A model generated the notes under the pieces. It saw nothing but the letters and a program-made list of their open reading frames with translations. It did not search any database and had not been told where the DNA came from. A stretch of 64,000 bases of DNA from Cytophagales bacterium. GTDB lineage: Bacteria; Bacteroidota; Bacteroidia; Cytophagales; Cyclobacteriaceae. The first letter of the stretch is position 1. Each line of letters begins with the position of its first letter. Made by a program: the position numbers and the translations under genes. The stretch covers positions 1-64,000 of the forward strand of contig JAFLBR010000016.1 in assembly GCA_017303795.1 (NCBI GenBank), in the 5' to 3' direction. Below are positions 3,463 to 61,399 of this stretch, piece by piece.

Positions 3463-4422
3463 TCAATCTAGGGAAATTGCCGACTGGCTGCCGATCTCAA
3501 TTAACTTTTCGTATTCTTTATTATTGAGATCGCGCTGGAAGAAGTTGATTGGATTAAGATAAGTGCCGTTGTGCAATACTTCGTAATGCAGATGTGGTCC
3601 AACAGAAGTACCCGTGTTTCCCACATAGCCAATTACCTGGCCGCGTTTTACTTTTTCGCCCGCGTATACAATAAACTTTGTCATGTGGCCATAACGCGTT
3701 TGCAGGCCCGAGCCATGATCAATAAAAACCATATTACCGAGCGTTTCAGAATATTGGGCAATGGCTACAGAGCCATCTCCGGTAGCATAGATAGGTGCGC
3801 CTTGTGGCGCTGTAAAGTCAAGACCATTATGTGGTCTTACATATCCCAGCAATGGATGCATGCGTAATCCAAATAAGGTGTGTAATTGTTTCAGGTCTTT
3901 GTTGCTTACAGGTTGAATAGCAGGCCGCGAAGCCCAGATTTTTTCTTTGCGGGTCAGTTCATCCTGCAATTGTTGTAACGATTGAGCTTCAATTTCTAAT
4001 CTGTTTTTTAGTTTCTCGGCTTGTTCGTAAGCCTGCCGTACCAGAGGATAATAAATACCTTCACTTGCTTTGGCACGACCACCCACACCGGCTTCGCGCT
4101 GCGATTGATCGAGTGGTTGCAGATCTAAAATAACGCGGTAGTTGTTATCATCGTTATGTTCAAGCGCACTTAGTTGTACCGAGGTGCGATCTAATTGCTT
4201 ATATAAAACCTCCCACTCAGCTTTCAGGCTCTGGTTAATTTGAGTCTGGAATGTTTCGTCTATAGGTGGATAACGCGAATTAAAATAAAGCAATGCGGCA
4301 ACGCCCAACACAAATGAAATTCCGATAAAGCGAACCAACCTTTGGGCTGCATCTTTTGGCGATACAATTACCGGTTCATATTTGCAGGTTTCAGCATTGT
4401 ATGTGTATCGCATCCGGTTCAT
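3463..4422 (-). CDS. M23-family membrane-anchored murein endopeptidase (second of pair)
   Basis: This 319-aa protein has one N-terminal transmembrane helix (about residues 28-48, FIGISFVLGVAALLYF), a coiled-coil linker (about 60-160) and a C-terminal LytM/M23 domain. Zinc and catalytic motifs are visible: GLRMHPLLGYVRPHNGLDF (HxxxD), then TRYGHM and GPHLHYEVL (HxH). It should cut peptidoglycan cross-bridges or regulate an amidase from the periplasmic face. Its start ATG overlaps the stop of the upstream M23 gene by one base (TAATG), so the two are probably translationally coupled. Both proteins share the architecture and probably arose by duplication. Confidence 0.93.
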   Translation of the reverse strand: MNRMRYTYNAETCKYEPVIVSPKDAAQRLVRFIGISFVLGVAALLYFNSRYPPIDETFQTQINQSLKAEWEVLYKQLDRTSVQLSALEHNDDNNYRVILDLQPLDQSQREAGVGGRAKASEGIYYPLVRQAYEQAEKLKNRLEIEAQSLQQLQDELTRKEKIWASRPAIQPVSNKDLKQLHTLFGLRMHPLLGYVRPHNGLDFTAPQGAPIYATGDGSVAIAQYSETLGNMVFIDHGSGLQTRYGHMTKFIVYAGEKVKRGQVIGYVGNTGTSVGPHLHYEVLHNGTYLNPINFFQRDLNNKEYEKLIEIGSQSAISLD

Positions 4423-5393
4423 TAGTCGAGCGATTGGTTTTGTTTCTTCGATACAGTCAACAACACTTCATATTGGTCGGCCGAAATGCCTTCCATAAAA
4501 AACTTAATCGGATCGAGGCTAACGCCATTCTTAATTACCTCGTAGTGCAAGTGTGGTGCAATAGAACCGCCTGAACTTCCAATGGTGCCAATGGGTTGTC
4601 CTTTTTCTAATTTCTGCCCGGTGCGTGCTTCAATTTCTTCCAAGTGCGAGTAGCGGGTAATGTAACCGTTACCGTGATCAATCTCTATATAATTACCGTA
4701 GCCGGCAATCAAATCACTCTTTTTGGTAATTAGCACACGGCCGGGTGCAGTAGCCAGCACAAGTGTGCCACGTGGTGCTGCTATATCTACACCATCGTGT
4801 TGATACTTGCCCTTGTGAAATGGATTGATGCGTACACCAAAGCCCGATACTAACTTTTCCAATTCAAAGTTTTGAATAGGCGCAATAGAAGGGGTGGCGA
4901 TTAACTCAGGCATGTCCGATCGGCCTACACGCGCATTCAAACTAAAAAATTTATTGCCGCTTTGCGCTGAATGAATCAACTCGGTAAATCGATTACCTAA
5001 CTGCGAAACCGATTCATTAAACTCGGCTTTGTTTGAAAGTAAAATTTCTTCGCGCTCCGGAAACACTTGCCCGGTGGTTTCGGCAGCCTCTGTTTCAAAT
5101 AACTTTTGGTAGAGCGAAAGGTCTTTTTTCTTAAGATCAGTAAGTTGATTGTTCGATTCTGTAAGCAGCGCTGAAAGAATAACTTTATGTTCAGAGAGGG
5201 CGCGATTCTCCGCACGCAATTGTTTCTCCTTAGGCGTTTCGATAATAAGGTTTTGCAAGAAGAGCAGGGCCGCAAAAAAGACAAATCCAAAAACAAGATA
5301 ACCTACTATACCCATGGCGATACGCACAACCGAAAACCGGGCGCGTTCGAAACGTAACGTTTTGGGGTTATAATAGAATTTTGTCAGGGCCAT
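4422..5393 (-). CDS. M23-family membrane-anchored murein endopeptidase (first of pair)
   Basis: This 323-aa paralogue of the following gene has a transmembrane helix near residues 25-47, a coiled coil (about 55-125) and a C-terminal M23 domain with GVRINPFHKGKYQHDGVDI (HxxxD), TRYSHL and APHLHYEVI. All zinc ligands and the catalytic His pair are present, so it is expected to be an active lysostaphin-like endopeptidase. It is divergent from alaS with a 180-bp spacer between the starts. The TAATG junction with the second M23 gene indicates one transcript for both. Confidence 0.93.
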   Translation of the reverse strand: MALTKFYYNPKTLRFERARFSVVRIAMGIVGYLVFGFVFFAALLFLQNLIIETPKEKQLRAENRALSEHKVILSALLTESNNQLTDLKKKDLSLYQKLFETEAAETTGQVFPEREEILLSNKAEFNESVSQLGNRFTELIHSAQSGNKFFSLNARVGRSDMPELIATPSIAPIQNFELEKLVSGFGVRINPFHKGKYQHDGVDIAAPRGTLVLATAPGRVLITKKSDLIAGYGNYIEIDHGNGYITRYSHLEEIEARTGQKLEKGQPIGTIGSSGGSIAPHLHYEVIKNGVSLDPIKFFMEGISADQYEVLLTVSKKQNQSLD

Positions 5394-27031: not shown

Positions 27032-27702
27032 AAAAATGTTTTGAGGTTTTGCGCTACCAGGTGAATGGGTAAACCCATCACGGTGAAGTATGAGCCTTCA
27101 AGATGATCGATGATTGTAATACTTTTTCCAGTGGTAGGCTGCGTAATGGTTTGTTCAATCAAATCACTCCGGCCAATGCCGTTCAGGAAATTTATTTCTT
27201 CCTGCGAACAGGGATTGAATTTTTCGGGGAGGCAATCTTGCGCACCGTACGCACCGGCCTTATCTAAAGGTTTAAAAGTATCGATGTAGTATTCGATATC
27301 GTTGATGGATAGTGCTCTGAACGTAACGTTTGTCTGGTCGCTAAAGCATACCGTCTTTTCTTTCGATAGCAGACACACTGCAGTTACTACCGTGTGCGTT
27401 TTACCGCTTAGCTGGGTAAGCATTTTAATCGCTTCGTTACGATCCAATGGTTTATTCAGAATTTCATTTTCCAGAATAACTACGGTATCGGAAGCTACTA
27501 CTACTTCGTTAGTAAGTTCTGACTCAAACACCTTTGCTTTTTTCTGAGCCAAAAATGCAGGCACTTCTTTAACTGGCATCGCGGCAGAAAAAGATTCATC
27601 GATATCCGGAGTGCGAACAGTAAACGTAAAACCGACTTCGCGCATCAGGTATTGCCTGCGTGGCGAACTGGAAGCGAGTATGAGTGAGCGGATGAGTTTC
27701 AA
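27028..27702 (-). CDS. maf: Maf-family nucleotide pyrophosphatase
   Basis: Maf/YhdE proteins hydrolyse non-canonical nucleotides such as m5UTP or dTTP. The 224-aa protein has the N-terminal LILASSSPRRQYLM signature, VVASDTVVILENEILNKP and a LDKAGAYGAQD block with the catalytic Asp-Lys-Ala-Gly-Ala-Tyr-Gly. Only a TTG codon at 27702 gives a natural start, and it overlaps the stop of the upstream DUF5615 gene (TTGA), so initiation is probably coupled. At 224 aa it is somewhat longer than many family members because of extra residues near the C-terminal third. Confidence 0.93.
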   Translation of the reverse strand: MKLIRSLILASSSPRRQYLMREVGFTFTVRTPDIDESFSAAMPVKEVPAFLAQKKAKVFESELTNEVVVASDTVVILENEILNKPLDRNEAIKMLTQLSGKTHTVVTAVCLLSKEKTVCFSDQTNVTFRALSINDIEYYIDTFKPLDKAGAYGAQDCLPEKFNPCSQEEINFLNGIGRSDLIEQTITQPTTGKSITIIDHLEGSYFTVMGLPIHLVAQNLKTFL

Positions 27703-28055
27703 TTGGAAATAACTTTTACTCCTTGTCGACTTAATTCAATCATTCCATTTGCCTTAATGGCTTCAAGAATTTGGGGCAAATGAAACTCAAAATGCTTTAC
27801 CAGTTCAGTCAACTTAAGATTGCCAACTGTTACAAAGATTAATTTGTGAGGTTCTCTTTTTAAAAGATACGAGTGGAAGAAGTCGGTATCTTTTGTAATT
27901 AAAATAAGTTTATCCTGAATCGATAACCTCCGTATTTCAGTATCACTTGTTAAATTTCCTGAAGGTAGTTGTAAGGTGTGTTTGCAGGTATGACCTGCTT
28001 TTGAGAAACATTCAACCAGGCTTTTGGGTAACTGCGCGTCAACCAGAAAATTCAT
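27699..28055 (-). CDS. DUF5615 PIN-like protein, putative toxin
   Basis: A 118-aa protein of the DUF5615 (Mut7-C/PIN-like) family. MNFLVDAQLPKSLVECF at the N-terminus gives the first acidic residue of a PIN-like nuclease, and LILITKDTDFFHSYL gives the conserved TKDxDF motif. It overlaps the DUF433 gene upstream by 4 bp. DUF433-DUF5615 pairs are widely predicted toxin-antitoxin modules. It is placed as toxin by fold; no activity is proven. It is embedded in the same transcript as maf and a CPBP protease, unusual for a mobile toxin-antitoxin system. Confidence 0.85.
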   Translation of the reverse strand: MNFLVDAQLPKSLVECFSKAGHTCKHTLQLPSGNLTSDTEIRRLSIQDKLILITKDTDFFHSYLLKREPHKLIFVTVGNLKLTELVKHFEFHLPQILEAIKANGMIELSRQGVKVISN

Positions 28056-28291
28056 GCACTCATCGGGTACGATGTACCCTTGTATTTTAATACTTCAGTT
28101 GCATAAGCTAATGCCGCTAAAATGTCTTCGCGCTGAAGATCATTAAATTCAGATAGAATTTCTTCAATTGTATTTCCGCTGGAGAGGTATTCTAAAATAC
28201 TTTCAACCAGATAGCGGGTATTACGAATAGTAGGCTTTCCATGTCCTACTTCAGGATTTAGGGTGATTCTTTCAAGCCATTTCTTTTCCAT
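28052..28291 (-). CDS. DUF433 protein, putative antitoxin
   Basis: A 79-aa DUF433 protein starting at the ATG at 28291. LERITLNPEVGHGKPTIRNT and the SILEYLSSGNTIEEILSEF helix are typical of the family, which has a small winged or homeodomain-like helix-turn-helix. It is the presumed antitoxin of the downstream DUF5615 protein. The 4-bp ATGA overlap is typical of an antitoxin-first module. It lies 21 bp after the DUF1015 gene on the same strand. Confidence 0.87.
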   Translation of the reverse strand: MEKKWLERITLNPEVGHGKPTIRNTRYLVESILEYLSSGNTIEEILSEFNDLQREDILAALAYATEVLKYKGTSYPMSA

Positions 28292-28312
28292 GACCACAAG
28301 TTAAAAAATTAT

Positions 28313-29618: not shown

Positions 29619-31106
29619 TCAAGTCCGGTTTTTCTTCCAGTTGGATACCGCTTTTGTATTTTCTACAGGAGCAAGGGTTGCAGTTTCTTTTGGTTGCAGC
29701 GTAGCAAGCAATGCCGATAACAATTCCTCATCCTTATCGTCTTGTGTTTTTAGCACATCAGGTGTAAAATATTTTTCTACAAACTTGGTATCAAAGTTTC
29801 CGCTGGTGAAGGCTTGGTGTTGCATTACAAACTTGCAGAAGCCAAGTGTAGTTTCCAATCCGGTAATGGTATATTCATTAATAGCCCGAATTGTTTTGGC
29901 AATGGCACGTTCGCGCGTACTATCGTGGCAAATCATTTTAGCTATCATCGGATCGTAATAGAACGGCACCGCCATGCCTTGTTCAAAACCATCGTCTACC
30001 CGAATGCCATGACCTTGCGGACGATTATATGTTTTTAAAGTACCAATGTCGGGTAAGAAATTATTGGTGGGGTCTTCTGCATAAACACGAACCTCTACAG
30101 CATGACCGTTGATGGTAAGGTCTTCCTGTTTAAAGGGAAGCTTTTCACCTTCTGCTACTTTTATCTGAAGCTTTACCAGATCAAGTCCTGTAATTTCTTC
30201 CGTTACCGGATGCTCAACCTGCAACCGCGTATTCATTTCCAGAAAATAAAAGTTCAGATTTTCATCTACAATAAACTCAACCGTACCGGCATTGTAATAG
30301 TTGGCGGCACGCGCAACGTTAACAGCCGCTTCGCCCATTTTTTTTCTTAGTTCAGGTGTGAGAATAGAAGATGGCGCTTCTTCAATTACTTTCTGATGCC
30401 TGCGCTGAATGGAACACTCACGTTCAAACAAATGCACTACGTTTCCATGCTGATCGCCAAAAATTTGAAACTCAATGTGGCGCGGCTGTGTCACATATTT
30501 TTCAATGAATACCGAGCCATCGCCAAAAGCAGATTTAGCTTCACTCACGGCTCGCTCCATCTGTGTTTCAAAATCAGGTTCAGCATCAACAATGCGCATA
30601 CCTTTGCCACCGCCACCGGCACTGGCTTTTATCAGAATAGGATAACCAATTTCAGCAGCGATTTTCTTTGCCTTAGGCAGATCAGAGATGGGCTCTGAAG
30701 TTCCGGGTACCAGCGGCACATTAAATTTTGCTACAGCTGCTTTTGCGGCCAGTTTACTGCCCATCAATTCAATTGATTCCGGTGAAGGCCCTATAAAAAT
30801 CAAACCTTCCTTTCTTACCAATGCGGCAAAGTCTTCGTTCTCCGACAGGAAACCATAGCCAGGGTGAATAGCATCGGCACCGGTTTGTTTAGCTGCGGCA
30901 ATAATCTTCTCCATCACCAGATACGATTGTGCTGATGGGGGTGGCCCAATGCAAACAGCTTCATCCGCAAAGCGAACATGCAAAGCTTGCCGATCCGCTT
31001 CGCTAAACACGGCCACGGTTTTAATTCCCAGTTCTCGGGCACTGCGCATAATGCGCAAGGCAATCTCGCCCCGGTTGGCAACCAATAGTTTCTGAATTTT
31101 TTTCAT
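29619..31106 (-). CDS. accC: Biotin carboxylase subunit of an acyl-CoA carboxylase
   Basis: The protein (495 aa from the ATG at 31106) carries the biotin carboxylase fold: KLLVANRGEIALRIMRSARE, then the ATP-grasp loop IKASAGGGGKGMRIV, HIEFQIFGDQHGNVVHL, FLEMNTRLQVEHPVTEEITG and DSTRERAIA. It is longer than E. coli AccC (449 aa), with a C-terminal extension of about 40 residues ending in a basic tail. In Bacteroidota, forms of this length often serve acyl-CoA (propionyl or acetyl) carboxylases. No biotin carrier or carboxyltransferase gene is in the window. A TTG at 31127 would add seven residues, which is less likely. Confidence 0.95.
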   Translation of the reverse strand: MKKIQKLLVANRGEIALRIMRSARELGIKTVAVFSEADRQALHVRFADEAVCIGPPPSAQSYLVMEKIIAAAKQTGADAIHPGYGFLSENEDFAALVRKEGLIFIGPSPESIELMGSKLAAKAAVAKFNVPLVPGTSEPISDLPKAKKIAAEIGYPILIKASAGGGGKGMRIVDAEPDFETQMERAVSEAKSAFGDGSVFIEKYVTQPRHIEFQIFGDQHGNVVHLFERECSIQRRHQKVIEEAPSSILTPELRKKMGEAAVNVARAANYYNAGTVEFIVDENLNFYFLEMNTRLQVEHPVTEEITGLDLVKLQIKVAEGEKLPFKQEDLTINGHAVEVRVYAEDPTNNFLPDIGTLKTYNRPQGHGIRVDDGFEQGMAVPFYYDPMIAKMICHDSTRERAIAKTIRAINEYTITGLETTLGFCKFVMQHQAFTSGNFDTKFVEKYFTPDVLKTQDDKDEELLSALLATLQPKETATLAPVENTKAVSNWKKNRT

Positions 31107-31290
31107 TGGCAAAATTCTATCCTGCAATGCTAACGAATTAGGGAAACAAGTGCGTAAGCTTTGCGTGAAAATCTTGAGGATTCACTGGTTGTGTAGAAGT
31201 GAGATAACAGGTATTTTGCTATTTCGTAAATTGCAATAGCATGGAGTCATTGATAAAATCAAGAATTGACTTTAAGAGTGTAAAACTGAT

Positions 31291-32340
31291 ATGACCTTTA
31301 TAGCTGGATATATTTATAAAAATTCTGTACAGATAGTTTCGGATTCCGCAGTGACTGGTCCAAAAAGGCCGGAAAATCATGACATTCCTAATTTAATTTT
31401 TTGCAGTTCGTTTAGAGAGACCGTACATATTTCTGGGGATCAAGCTATTTCAGAATCAGCTAATAAATTGAATAATATTGATGGACGGATACTAATTGCT
31501 TACGCAGGTTTGACTAGCGAAGGAGATGGAACGCTTCGAGATTTGATTCTAAGATTTAAAGTCAATTTTGGTAAACCCATATCTCATGTAATCAAAGAGT
31601 ATTTTGCTGAAAATATTTATAAGAACTCCCAGTATATTATTGGATTCAATGAGGAAGATAAACCCCATTTATTTGTTTGCTATGAAAATGGACGAAGCTA
31701 CTTAGAGAATAATCGACCCGGTATCGCATTCGCTGGAGTGTTTCCCTATAATATTCATGAGTCAGCAAAGTGGGCATTTCAATGGGCGAGTAAACTAGGA
31801 TATTCGGAAGATGAAACTCTCGTTTTTATGCAGGCATTATTGCAGACAATATCTGTAACAAATAGAACAATAGAATACAGAGTTGGTGGTCACTTTAATG
31901 GCGCTTTAGTTTCACGAGAAGGAGTTAGATGGTCAAGGGATACGTTATACATAATGTACTCAACAAATAATTTCGAACTGGGAGATAAATTTATAGTCGC
32001 AAAGTACAATAGAGAAAACTCAACATTTCTTATAGGAAATGATTCAAAATGGTTATTTCATCCTTCTATCGGAAGCAATAGTAAAGAGGAGGTCAAGAAA
32101 AAATGGAATGATTCTATCCATGAGTGCTATAACAATGAGCTTCCTGATTTTTGCGTTTTTATATCATACGATAAGAGAACCGTTGTATCTATAAGCAACG
32201 AAAGCGGAAAGAACCATCGGATTGAACGAGTGCATGGAGGCATACAAATTCCTTATCATATTAAAATAGAAATGAATAAGTACTTAAATCCACCCGATGG
32301 CACTATTGGAATCTACACATATTCTAATTTCATAAAATGA
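31291..32340 (+). CDS. Divergent proteasome-beta/HslV-like Ntn-hydrolase protein
   Basis: This 349-aa protein opens Met-Thr, so removal of Met would leave Thr1. With that numbering Asp17, Ser18 and Thr21 fall in IVSDSAVTG, exactly as in the proteasome beta and HslV pattern (Thr1, Asp17, Ser/Arg, Thr21). Lys59 (Met1 numbering) in NKLNNIDGRILIAYAG occupies the place of the catalytic Lys33 strand, followed by the AGLTSEGDG turn. An extra 25 residues lie between. The C-terminal 200 residues are not recognised. The gene is AT-rich compared with the neighbours and stands alone between accC and an alpha-oxoamine synthase. The fold is an inference. The substrate is unknown. Confidence 0.55.
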   Translation: MTFIAGYIYKNSVQIVSDSAVTGPKRPENHDIPNLIFCSSFRETVHISGDQAISESANKLNNIDGRILIAYAGLTSEGDGTLRDLILRFKVNFGKPISHVIKEYFAENIYKNSQYIIGFNEEDKPHLFVCYENGRSYLENNRPGIAFAGVFPYNIHESAKWAFQWASKLGYSEDETLVFMQALLQTISVTNRTIEYRVGGHFNGALVSREGVRWSRDTLYIMYSTNNFELGDKFIVAKYNRENSTFLIGNDSKWLFHPSIGSNSKEEVKKKWNDSIHECYNNELPDFCVFISYDKRTVVSISNESGKNHRIERVHGGIQIPYHIKIEMNKYLNPPDGTIGIYTYSNFIK

Positions 32341-32402
32341 CTTAAGACATGTGAGAATATGACCTTTTAATAGGTCTTTTAACACATTACGTTAATTTTT
32401 TC

Positions 32403-32484: not shown

Positions 32485-33738
32485 ATGGTCGATTTATTTG
32501 ACAAGCTGAAAATGGAGGCCGGCCCGCTGGCCAAATACTCACACCTGCCCGATGACTATTTCTTCTTTCCAAAGCTGGAAGGCGAAATCGGTCCGCGCAT
32601 GAAGTTCAACGGCAAAACCGTTTTGAACTGGAGTTTGAATAACTACCTCGGGTTGGCTAACCACCCCGAAGTAAGAAAGGCTGATGCCGATTCGGCTGCG
32701 CAATATGGCCTGGCATCACCAATGGGTGCGCGTATGATGTCGGGTAACTCAGTACATCATCTTGAGTTAGAAAAGCAACTGGCAGCTTTCGTACAGAAAG
32801 AAGACGCTATGTTGTTAAACTATGGCTATCAGGGTGTGCTTTCTATTATCGATGCCATTGTAGATCGCAAAGATGTAATTGTTTATGATAGCGAGTCGCA
32901 CGCCTGTATTATTGATGGCGTACGGTTGCACATGGGTAAGCGCTTTGTTTATCCACACAACAACATGGAAAACTTAGAGAAGCAATTACAGCGTGCTACC
33001 AAACTGGCTAACGAAACCGGTGGTGGTATTCTGGTAATTACGGAAGGTGTTTTCGGAATGTCGGGTAACATGGGCGATCTGAAAGGAATTGTTGAACTGA
33101 AGAAGAAATATAACTTCCGCCTGTTTGTAGATGATGCCCACGGCTTTGGTACAATGGGTGCTACTGGTGCCGGTGTAGGTGAGGAGCAAGGTGTTCAAGA
33201 TCAGATAGACTTATACTTCTCTACGTTTGCCAAATCAATGGCCAGCATTGGTGCGTTTGTGGCAGGCGATAAAAAAATTCTGAAGTTCTTACGGTACAGT
33301 GTACGTTCACAGATCTATGCTAAGTCGTTGCCGATGCCATTGGTAATTGGCGGTTTGAAACGCCTTGAATTAGTGAAGAAACATCCTGAATTGAGGGCCG
33401 ATCTGAAGAAGATTATGGCTGCTATTAAAGCTGGCTTGAAAGATCGCGGTTTCAGCATCAATCCAACCCAGACACCACCCACTCCGGTACTCTTTAAAGG
33501 TGGGGTTGGCGAGGCCGCTAATATGTCGATGGATTTGCGCGAGAATTATGGCATTTTCTGCTCGGTAGTAATCTACCCGGTGGTGCCAAAAGACGTAATT
33601 ATGTTCAGAATTATCCCTACAGCGGCCCATACGCTGGCCGATGTGGAAGAGACCCTGAACGCGTTTTCTGCGCTAAAAACGAAGCTTGACAGCGGTTTTT
33701 ACAAGGAAGAGGCACTGGTGTCAGTTACCAAGGTCTAA
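32485..33738 (+). CDS. Alpha-oxoamine synthase family PLP enzyme, probably serine palmitoyltransferase
   Basis: The 417-aa protein belongs to the fold-type I PLP enzymes that also include glycine C-acetyltransferase (Kbl) and 8-amino-7-oxononanoate synthase (BioF). The active-site lysine lies in YFSTFAKSMASIGAFVAG, closer to the serine palmitoyltransferase pattern (TFSKSLASIGG) than to Kbl or BioF. SHACIIDGVRL and VDDAHGFGTMG bind PLP. Serine palmitoyltransferase is common in Bacteroidota, which make sphingolipids, so that is the best guess. No tdh or bio gene is near, which argues against Kbl and BioF. An experimentally defined relative would be needed to decide. Confidence 0.7.
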   Translation: MVDLFDKLKMEAGPLAKYSHLPDDYFFFPKLEGEIGPRMKFNGKTVLNWSLNNYLGLANHPEVRKADADSAAQYGLASPMGARMMSGNSVHHLELEKQLAAFVQKEDAMLLNYGYQGVLSIIDAIVDRKDVIVYDSESHACIIDGVRLHMGKRFVYPHNNMENLEKQLQRATKLANETGGGILVITEGVFGMSGNMGDLKGIVELKKKYNFRLFVDDAHGFGTMGATGAGVGEEQGVQDQIDLYFSTFAKSMASIGAFVAGDKKILKFLRYSVRSQIYAKSLPMPLVIGGLKRLELVKKHPELRADLKKIMAAIKAGLKDRGFSINPTQTPPTPVLFKGGVGEAANMSMDLRENYGIFCSVVIYPVVPKDVIMFRIIPTAAHTLADVEETLNAFSALKTKLDSGFYKEEALVSVTKV

Positions 33739-59582: not shown

Positions 59583-59966
59583 ATGAATAAGCGAAATCCT
59601 TATTCTCGACTCCATTTAGTAACTATCTCATTAGGGTGGTCAATAATGATTTTTAGCTTGTCTGAACTTGGAATACTATTATTAAAGTCCTGGGTATTTC
59701 TGCTAATTACTTTTTTTTCGACAGGCTTGTTTGTACTATACTCAAAATTTGGATTATATAGGGTAAAACATCACTGGACCTATAAAAAATTTGTTATTGT
59801 GACAGCTTCATTTCTTGTAGTGATAGCGATTTTATTTAATAAAATCATATTAATTACGTCCAGCTATTTCTATGAGATAGCATACACTTGTGAAGTTGTA
59901 ATATTCCTTTTGTTCAGCATTTCAATTGCTTACCTAAAAAAGGAAAAAAAAGATGGCGCTTTATAA
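59583..59966 (+). CDS. Four-helix membrane protein, first gene of AT-rich cassette
   Basis: A 127-aa protein with four hydrophobic segments (about 10-30, 36-55, 70-88 and 97-118). It starts at the ATG at 59583, since the longer reading begins at a TTG and lacks support. The sequence is AT-rich with many Lys, Ile and Phe codons. It overlaps the next gene by 14 bp. No family is recognised; the position next to a metallopeptidase suggests a membrane partner. Confidence 0.7.
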   Translation: MNKRNPYSRLHLVTISLGWSIMIFSLSELGILLLKSWVFLLITFFSTGLFVLYSKFGLYRVKHHWTYKKFVIVTASFLVVIAILFNKIILITSSYFYEIAYTCEVVIFLLFSISIAYLKKEKKDGAL

Positions 59967-60654
59967 AATACTATTAACAATCATTGCATCAACCACAATA
60001 CTTACAATTGGGTATGATATATATGAATGGAGAAAAGCACCACCTTATGATGAAGGTGTAGCCATTGATGAGTGGATCCCATCTCCTGCAGTAACCATAT
60101 GGCTTATAACAGTCGGAGTTTGTCTGTTTTTATTGGCCACTTGTTATCATGTAAATATTTTTGATTACTCTTCTCCAATAGAACACAAGAATGTTTCTTT
60201 TGTAACATTGAAGGATTTTAAAGGTGTAAAATTGCCTAACAGAACTTTAGAAGGAAGCAAGGAGTTTGCTTATATAGTGACAACATTGTTTATTAATAGG
60301 AAACCCGATGAAATTGTAGTAAAGTCTCATTTTCATCCTTCAAGATCATATGTCTTTAATAGATTGACAGCAGATCGCCTTTTACTAGATCACGAGCTAT
60401 ACCATTTTCATATAACTGAATTTTGTGCCCGAAAAATGAGAAAGGATTTAAGAGAATTAACATCCGTACCATCTGATGCAGAAGTCAGTTTTGTTTTGGA
60501 TAAAACGCAGAGAGAGATATCTAGCTTACAATCACAGTATGATTACGATACGCATCACGGTTATATTTTAAAACAGCAAAAATTTTGGAAGAATAAGGTT
60601 GATAGTTTATTATTTTTGTACAAGGAATATGAAGACACATCCATAAGATTTTGA
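59953..60654 (+). CDS. DUF922-like membrane-anchored zinc metallopeptidase
   Basis: A 233-aa protein with two transmembrane segments near the N-terminus (about 5-20 and 46-66). A zinc motif HELYH is at residues 147-151 (LLLDHELYHFHITEFCARKM), and further on SQYDYDTHHG (194-203) is followed by KQQKFW. Both blocks match the DUF922 pattern (HEQGHFD-xx-E-x-x-A-R and YD-x-x-T-x-HG-x-x-x-x-Q-x-x-W), which is a predicted Zn-dependent protease family. Here the first motif has Leu-Tyr instead of Gln-Gly. It sits between a membrane protein and a lipoprotein, in an AT-rich three-gene set. Confidence 0.75.
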   Translation: MALYKILLTIIASTTILTIGYDIYEWRKAPPYDEGVAIDEWIPSPAVTIWLITVGVCLFLLATCYHVNIFDYSSPIEHKNVSFVTLKDFKGVKLPNRTLEGSKEFAYIVTTLFINRKPDEIVVKSHFHPSRSYVFNRLTADRLLLDHELYHFHITEFCARKMRKDLRELTSVPSDAEVSFVLDKTQREISSLQSQYDYDTHHGYILKQQKFWKNKVDSLLFLYKEYEDTSIRF

Positions 60655-60658
60655 ATAT

Positions 60659-61399
60659 ATGAAAGCAAATTCAATATTATTATTTATTTTTTTAGTGTTG
60701 GTCTGTGCGAGTTGTTCAAAAGAGAGTCGATTCCCAACTGATAAGAGGTATTGGGATTCAAAGGACTATGGTGATGTTATTCTTAAGATAGGTTATGGAA
60801 CTCCTGATGGCGAAGAATTTCCAAGATTCTCTAATCCTGAAACTGGTATTGTTATCAGAAAGCTTTTGGATGCTGAGAATTATAGAGTTATTATTGAAGA
60901 CCCAGAGTTGGGATTAAATTACCGAAACGAGGAGGCTGAAAAATTCTTCAATCACTATCGTGATTTAGCCAAAACATATTCAATAATGGATGTTCAAGAT
61001 AAATTTGTTTATGCCGAAGAATTAGCGGAGATACTTAAATTCGGTCTGCATTTGCAAATAGTATACTTCAAGTTAGGTAATGAAAGAATTGTAGCTCAAT
61101 CTGATTCTCCAGATTCTAAAAGAATTCAAGACATAGTTAGGTCTAATGAAACTACAGCAGTTAAAAACTTTAACGTTTTCCTAGATCAAGTGAATAATGA
61201 AAAGTCTTATGGTGAATATGCTTCTCTTCTTGCAGACGGAATAAATGAAGTTTTTCCTAAGTTGATTAGCAACTTTCCAAAAGCTAATTATTCCTCAATG
61301 AAGTCTAAGGCTGAGCTTATGTTAAATAAATCACAAAATGAAAAAGTTAAGACTGCCCTTACCTCACTTATTGAACGATTAAAGGGATTATCAGATTAG
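60659..61399 (+). CDS. Lipoprotein, third gene of AT-rich cassette
   Basis: A 246-aa lipoprotein (lipobox VCASC). The mature part is helical and charged, with DVILKIGYGTPDGEEFPRF near the start. No domain is recognised. It follows the DUF922-like gene by 4 bp. It may be a substrate, chaperone or immunity-type partner of the metallopeptidase, but there is no direct evidence. Confidence 0.72.
   Translation: MKANSILLFIFLVLVCASCSKESRFPTDKRYWDSKDYGDVILKIGYGTPDGEEFPRFSNPETGIVIRKLLDAENYRVIIEDPELGLNYRNEEAEKFFNHYRDLAKTYSIMDVQDKFVYAEELAEILKFGLHLQIVYFKLGNERIVAQSDSPDSKRIQDIVRSNETTAVKNFNVFLDQVNNEKSYGEYASLLADGINEVFPKLISNFPKANYSSMKSKAELMLNKSQNEKVKTALTSLIERLKGLSD

Follow-up and report, generated by a model that had tools for sequence, protein, structure and literature searches.

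Background

What a solitary proteasome-like gene does in a bacterial genome is the question raised by the open reading frame at positions 31,291-32,340 of the window, by which we mean the whole stretch of 64,000 nucleotides analysed (contig JAFLBR010000016.1 of a Cytophagales bacterium). Many bacterial proteasome homologs have no known function. The 2021 survey of Fuchs, Alva and Lupas presented 22 new subfamilies and, in the part of it drawn on here, describes no genomic contexts or co-occurrence suggestive of function (PMC8665760); its main text contains no words beginning with "restriction" or "defen". A subfamily linked to restriction genes and found once in a viral contig would allow testing by phage challenge. 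The original prediction, made from the sequence of the window, was a self-activating hydrolase or a peptidase used in stress or defence. Here we have analysed the gene, its relatives and their surroundings, and the reading we favour, at a probability of roughly 0.55, is that it encodes a divergent, propeptide-free proteasome-like Ntn hydrolase which has spread horizontally and most likely serves phage defence in an accessory role.

Results

The gene and its product

31291..32340, + strand: gene of the proteasome-like Ntn hydrolase, P0001 (translation of 349 aa)

The translation of this open reading frame starts with MTFIAGYIYKNSVQIVSDSAVT. The length given in the original prediction proved correct and is about twice that of HslV and greater than that of Anbu. 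The gene is AT-rich, as had been noted (34.9% GC vs 42.1% for the window, with 28.6% GC at third positions), it is the sole copy in its genome, and among the adjoining ORFs, judged by eye, no ATPase partner was seen. A chance open reading frame was ruled out by the open frame and the catalytic residues retained in relatives. In the window neither the Rfam nor the tRNA scan gave a match, and promoter and terminator scans did not exceed shuffles.

Conservation of the active site

Nine relatives, 17-23% identical to P0001, were aligned with it (alignment A6); in two of them, L015 (the same as L002) and L026, the M-T motif was taken to mark the start, the first possible start codon lying upstream of it. 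The residues concerned are encoded in the window as follows.

31294..31296, + strand: Thr2 codon, the predicted N-terminal nucleophile Thr1 once Met is removed (Thr in 9/10, Ser in 1/10)
31342..31344, + strand: Asp18 codon, Asp17 of the catalytic triad (10/10)
31357..31464, + strand: enlarged segment between Asp17 and Lys33, residues 23-58 (motif SFGE in the family, SFRE here)
31465..31467, + strand: Lys59 codon, Lys33 of the catalytic triad (10/10)
31507..31509, + strand: Gly73 codon, Gly47 of the oxyanion hole (10/10)

The residue-by-residue match with proteasome beta subunits claimed for Thr1, Asp17, Ser18 and Thr21 was borne out by T2, D18, S19 and T22 of the translation, counted with Met removed; the position of Ser18 is Thr in two of the ten members. 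Relatives without Thr at position 2 had been named as evidence against the assignment, and the one exception found, L072, carries Ser, which is the other nucleophile given for the proteasome-like family (PMC8665760). The lysine placed in the Lys33 strand is K59 within NKLNNIDGRILIAYAG, invariant in all ten members and 14 residues ahead of the invariant Gly, which equals the K33-G47 spacing of the proteasome. The family carries the residues by which Fuchs et al. 2021 recognise proteasome-like proteins (Thr1/Ser1, Asp17, Lys33 and Gly47 in the numbering of PMC8665760), with the T1-D17 spacing of 16 residues and the K33-G47 spacing of 14 residues exact in 10/10.

The distance from D17 to K33 is 34-45 residues across the ten members and 41 in P0001, vs 16 in the proteasome, and within this segment the F and E of the SFGE motif are invariant (10/10). 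In P0001 numbering, the residues invariant throughout A6 are M1, D18, T22, F41, E43, K59, G73, G149, Q185, G199, G200 and G204.

Predicted fold and profile comparisons

31291..31953, + strand: Ntn core, residues 1-221 (the span over which the AlphaFold model aligns with 20S subunits)
31954..32337, + strand: C-terminal extension, residues 222-349 (pLDDT block means 25-56; few structure matches extend there)

The AlphaFold model is arranged like a proteasome beta subunit and, together with the structure comparison, supports the Ntn fold on which the original prediction depended; by the usage of Fuchs et al. 2021 the modelled fold is proteasome beta-like. Both structure models are of modest confidence (pLDDT 57 and 53), helices 1 and 2 are seen in both, the residues directly ahead of Lys (20-58) have pLDDT below 50, and the structural alignments to 20S subunits show 7-17% identity among the matches listed. 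The C-terminal extension had been put at 200 residues, which was too long: about 130 residues lie beyond the modelled core, and the remaining extra length sits between D17 and K33.

Sequence profiles recognise the family faintly. The sole Pfam match of P0001 is Proteasome (PF00227; E 6.2e-4, 19.9 bits, below the curated cut-off of 22.4), and PF00227 matches 3/8 family members at E up to 1. P0001 has no match in PADLOC, NCBIfam or PHROGs; among eight members PADLOC gave a single weak match (AbiEi, E 0.085), and NCBIfam gave weak matches to several unrelated families, with archaeal proteasome beta for two members at E of at least 0.023. A PDB sequence search with P0001 returned one match (E 1.1), and PDB profile searches returned chains of the proteasome and of HslV, starting at E 0.016 and 0.006, amid a few unrelated chains. 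When profiles were compared with each other, the HslV-like proteins from the same eight genomes matched weakly (probability 7%), and hhalign against one Anbu-like protein, so labelled by eye, gave a probability of 47% limited to the first 32 columns.

Distribution of the family

The family is rare and patchy within the sampled genomes, whose relatives, family, order, class and phylum samples overlap. With P0001 as query, matches were found in 0/57 other genomes of the relatives sample, 3/294 of the family sample and 0/394 of the phylum sample. The class sample had a match in 1/394 other genomes. Profile searches reached 4/389 other genomes in the family, one of them new, and 7/389 others in the order at E up to 0.01, comprising one already known, three new members (L018, L019 and L020, covering model positions 1-367, 1-333 and 1-204 of a model 371 long) and three partial matches (L021-L023, E 8.3e-5 to 7.7e-3 over 52-67 model positions) left out of the count of relatives. 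A scan of genome_contigs with A2 gave four loci, all among those already found, in Nafulsella turpanensis, Algoriphagus locisalis, Algoriphagus mannitolivorans and an uncultured Cytophagales MAG; N. turpanensis and A. locisalis are Bacteroidota of the order Cytophagales and belong to the same GTDB family as the window's genome.

A further relative is encoded by the viral contig IMGVR_UViG_3300037722_001728 (L073). Single-protein searches of genome_contigs and viral_contigs with P0001 found no relative, A1 and A2 had no match in scans of the viral contigs, and such a scan with the L073 protein found itself only. By tblastn, P0001 had no match in the plasmid and phage collections; neither did the proteins of L002, L026, L013 and L073 in the plasmids, nor those of L013 and L073 in the phages.

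Gain of the gene in the window's genome

The gene lies between a biotin-carboxylase-like gene (29619-31127, - strand) and a gene of the 2-amino-3-ketobutyrate CoA ligase/serine palmitoyltransferase kind (32485-33738, + strand), both named by eye. The latter is present in 25/30 genomes of the same genus, the window's own included. In flanking sequence reaching up to 1.5 kb, the hydrolase accompanies it in 1/25, the window's own genome, and the carboxylase gene in 16/25, own included; of the nine without the carboxylase gene, seven were read further and carry other genes there, and two end with the contig. The stretch between flanks common to the window and the same-genus genome G008 (blastn against L070) is:

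31155..32396, no strand: 1242 bp here, 242 bp in G008

Because the flanks are 1242 bp apart here vs 242 bp in G008, about 1 kb was gained in the window, essentially the hydrolase gene. At the hydrolase's spot the close relative G009 (L062, about 3463-4597) has some 1.1 kb of DNA that is unrelated and contains small ORFs, and given this the gap may take up inserts repeatedly.

Two other places in the window were noted. Two adjacent low-GC ORFs of 233 and 246 aa (59953-61399; 33% GC, 26% at third positions) sit between topoisomerase-IV-like and FAD-monooxygenase-like genes, named by eye; the first has a DUF922 match below threshold, and the pair is probably another small insertion. At 27699-28297 a DUF433 gene (81 aa) is followed by a DUF5615/PIN-like gene (118 aa), a low-GC arrangement resembling a toxin-antitoxin pair.

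Gene neighbourhoods of the relatives

There are no restriction genes beside the window copy and no methyltransferase matches (PF02384/PF01555) on its contig. Several relatives are placed otherwise. In A. locisalis the order is type III mod, a PDC-S02-type gene, res and, 9 nt past the res stop, the hydrolase gene; two genes without Pfam match (558 and 145 aa; L012, 7224-9349) come right after it, and some 3 kb further on, within 5 kb of the hydrolase gene, there is a gene that by eye is transposase-like. In G880 (L026) hsdR, hsdM and hsdS are followed 63 nt on by the hydrolase gene, with an integrase 7.2 kb off. In A. mannitolivorans small genes surround it, with hsdS on one side of them and, on the other, a gene that by eye resembles hsdR. 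G831 (L024) has a same-strand methyltransferase at 282 bp, and Nafulsella has a methylase-fold ORF at 664 bp, the match of which reports one internal stop, with matches to IetA, an ATPase, and IetS about 2 kb and more off. The viral contig carries helicase/primase-like, minor-tail-like and ParB-methyltransferase genes, the methyltransferase being 0.9 kb from the hydrolase gene. In three cases the gene lies within same-strand restriction clusters.

Three relatives have no methyltransferase nearby. The G123 copy follows 1.4 kb past a Mg-chelatase/ComM-type gene that ends after 219 aa (ChlI/Mg-chelatase match; L011, 8212-8871), with small genes between, and is probably the result of an insertion into this gene; the G1049 copy has DUF4238 and unknown genes around it and, by eye, transposase-like genes within 5 kb; and in G1322, where no methyltransferase was seen, the upstream gene matches a phage transcriptional regulator. 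The G123, G880 and viral copies are in mobile settings.

In a count made after the pattern had been noticed, on seven loci and so leaving out G1322 and the viral contig, a methyltransferase (PF02384 and PF01555 matches, weak ones pooled) lay within 5 kb of 5/7 relatives, where genome coverage with rounded genome sizes predicts 0.15 (tail probability 1.7e-8); one of these genomes, G831, is methyltransferase-rich, with 35 such matches alone. With the window included the count is 5/8 against 0.17 expected (tail probability 7e-8), and at other distances it is 4/7 within 3 kb and 5/7 within 10 kb. By eye, six of all ten loci have a methyltransferase within 5 kb. Tyrosine integrases, taken as the control for a mobile setting (transposases and accessory genes at large being outside it), were within 5 kb in 0/7 and within 10 kb in 1/7. 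The linkage of several relatives to restriction-modification genes, which hints at a defence role, is the new part of the finding.

These neighbourhoods bear directly on the alternative that the gene is general mobile cargo with a housekeeping-like role, such as clearing damaged proteins, its linkage being mere clustering of accessory genes. The four of ten loci without a nearby methyltransferase (the window among them), the copy beyond the truncated ComM-type gene, the unrelated DNA at the window's spot in G009 and the transposase-like genes near the A. locisalis and G1049 copies all agree with it. It is opposed by the excess of methyltransferases within 5 kb, by the three placements inside restriction clusters and by the integrases, which show no such proximity and so weaken a reading based on mobile elements alone. 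We regard this alternative as a minority possibility.

Discussion

The first half of the original prediction, a proteasome-like hydrolase, is supported by the fold and the active site; for the second, a role in defence, the restriction linkage of several relatives gives support by context, and the window's own surroundings give none. In the mechanism we propose, methionine aminopeptidase would cleave off Met1 and thereby expose Thr1, which would attack an amide bond with the aid of Lys33 and Asp17 (Lys59 and Asp18 of the translation) and of an oxyanion hole of the Gly47 type. Substrate entry or binding would be shaped, in place of an ATPase partner, by the C-terminal extension and by the enlarged segment that precedes Lys and contains the F-x-E motif. 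The gene spreads by horizontal transfer, in many cases together with restriction-modification and other defence genes, and one copy is in a viral contig. Of this picture, the analysis shows the predicted fold, the conserved catalytic residues with their spacings, the patchy distribution and lateral gain, and the bias in the relatives' gene context; the activity, its activation by Met removal, the substrate, the parts played by loop and extension, and the defence role are proposed. Since the window copy is solitary, a linked restriction system would not be essential. Against the defence reading stand this copy, which has no adjoining restriction genes, and those of G123, G1049 and G1322, which have none nearby. 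A more specific form, which we consider doubtful, is a restriction-linked effector: with its gene lying inside type I and type III restriction operons, a self-activating Ntn hydrolase would be held by the restriction complex, freed when a phage blocks restriction, and would then cut host or phage proteins.

The protein might instead be a connectase-like specific amidase or peptide ligase rather than a general protease, with a small molecule or one protein as its target. Connectase, which belongs to the same family and acts as a ligase in monomeric form, carries an insertion between strands 3 and 4 (PMC8665760), the D17-K33 segment is enlarged in our family and no ATPase adjoins the window gene; helices 1 and 2, absent from connectase (PMC8665760), are nevertheless predicted in both models, and the enlarged segment is modelled at low confidence, so that we hold this identity to be unlikely. 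Quite improbable is a proteolytic controller that cuts HsdR/Res or another linked part and so restrains restriction at unmodified host sites: placement inside type I and type III clusters and the precedent of restriction alleviation by ClpXP proteolysis, which acts on EcoKI in E. coli (PMC4231737, PMC11109961), suit it, whereas the window copy and three relatives lack linked restriction genes and the unfolding partner it calls for is not seen adjoining the window gene.

With the 20S proteasome beta subunit the protein shares the Ntn core fold predicted over residues 1-221, Thr1, Asp17, Lys33 and Gly47 and the 16- and 14-residue spacings; it differs in starting with M-T, hence without a propeptide, in the longer D17-K33 distance and in the extension of about 130 residues. 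HslV belongs to the same fold family and has the same catalytic residues, but is compact, whereas P0001 has 128 residues after the core. An HslV-like gene, named by eye, occurs in 8/8 genomes searched, including the window's own (G000:C18, 97.9 bits), and no hslU-like gene was recognised by eye among the ORFs around the window gene; membership in HslV was rejected on length, on the PF00227 score below cut-off and on the separate HslV-like gene in the same genome. Like Anbu, the family starts with MT(F/Y), and over its first 32 columns it can be aligned, at the probability of 47% given above, to an Anbu-like protein; unlike Anbu, it is longer, and hhalign finds no likeness past the N-terminus. 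A. mannitolivorans carries both kinds, its third proteasome-like protein (247 aa; L035; G234:C1:494609-495121) being Anbu-like by eye.

Compared by their descriptions, the 22 subfamilies of Fuchs et al. 2021 offer several parallels. PMI-1 to PMI-6, RPC, DAH, connectase and others share the active-site residues and have insertions between secondary-structure elements, and some subfamilies have extra C-terminal domains (PMC8665760). The D17-K33 segment of our family is 18-29 residues longer than in the proteasome, and its position relative to strand 3 falls in a low-confidence part of the models; the insertion between strands 3 and 4 is a feature of connectase, PMI-5 and PMI-6.

In the literature searched, a part of the whole, we found no proteasome homolog with a role in phage defence. 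Alteromonas phage V22 has a proteasome-like gene listed among metabolic genes under protein catabolism, in a passage that gives it no defence role (PMC7289586), and the portion of PMC13026095 considered here refers to a defence island and, separately from it, to Ntn hydrolases for bile salts. The restriction context of the relatives provides a testable starting point for proteasome homologs without known function. The parallel in way of working, with no relation of fold claimed, is PrrC of EcoprrI, whose gene is an additional effector inside the operon of a type I restriction system (PMC3874165); like the ClpXP control of EcoKI, it offers a model open to test. PrrC, unlike our hydrolase, is an anticodon nuclease, and the type I complex keeps it sequestered until infection by T4 sets it free (PMC3874165).
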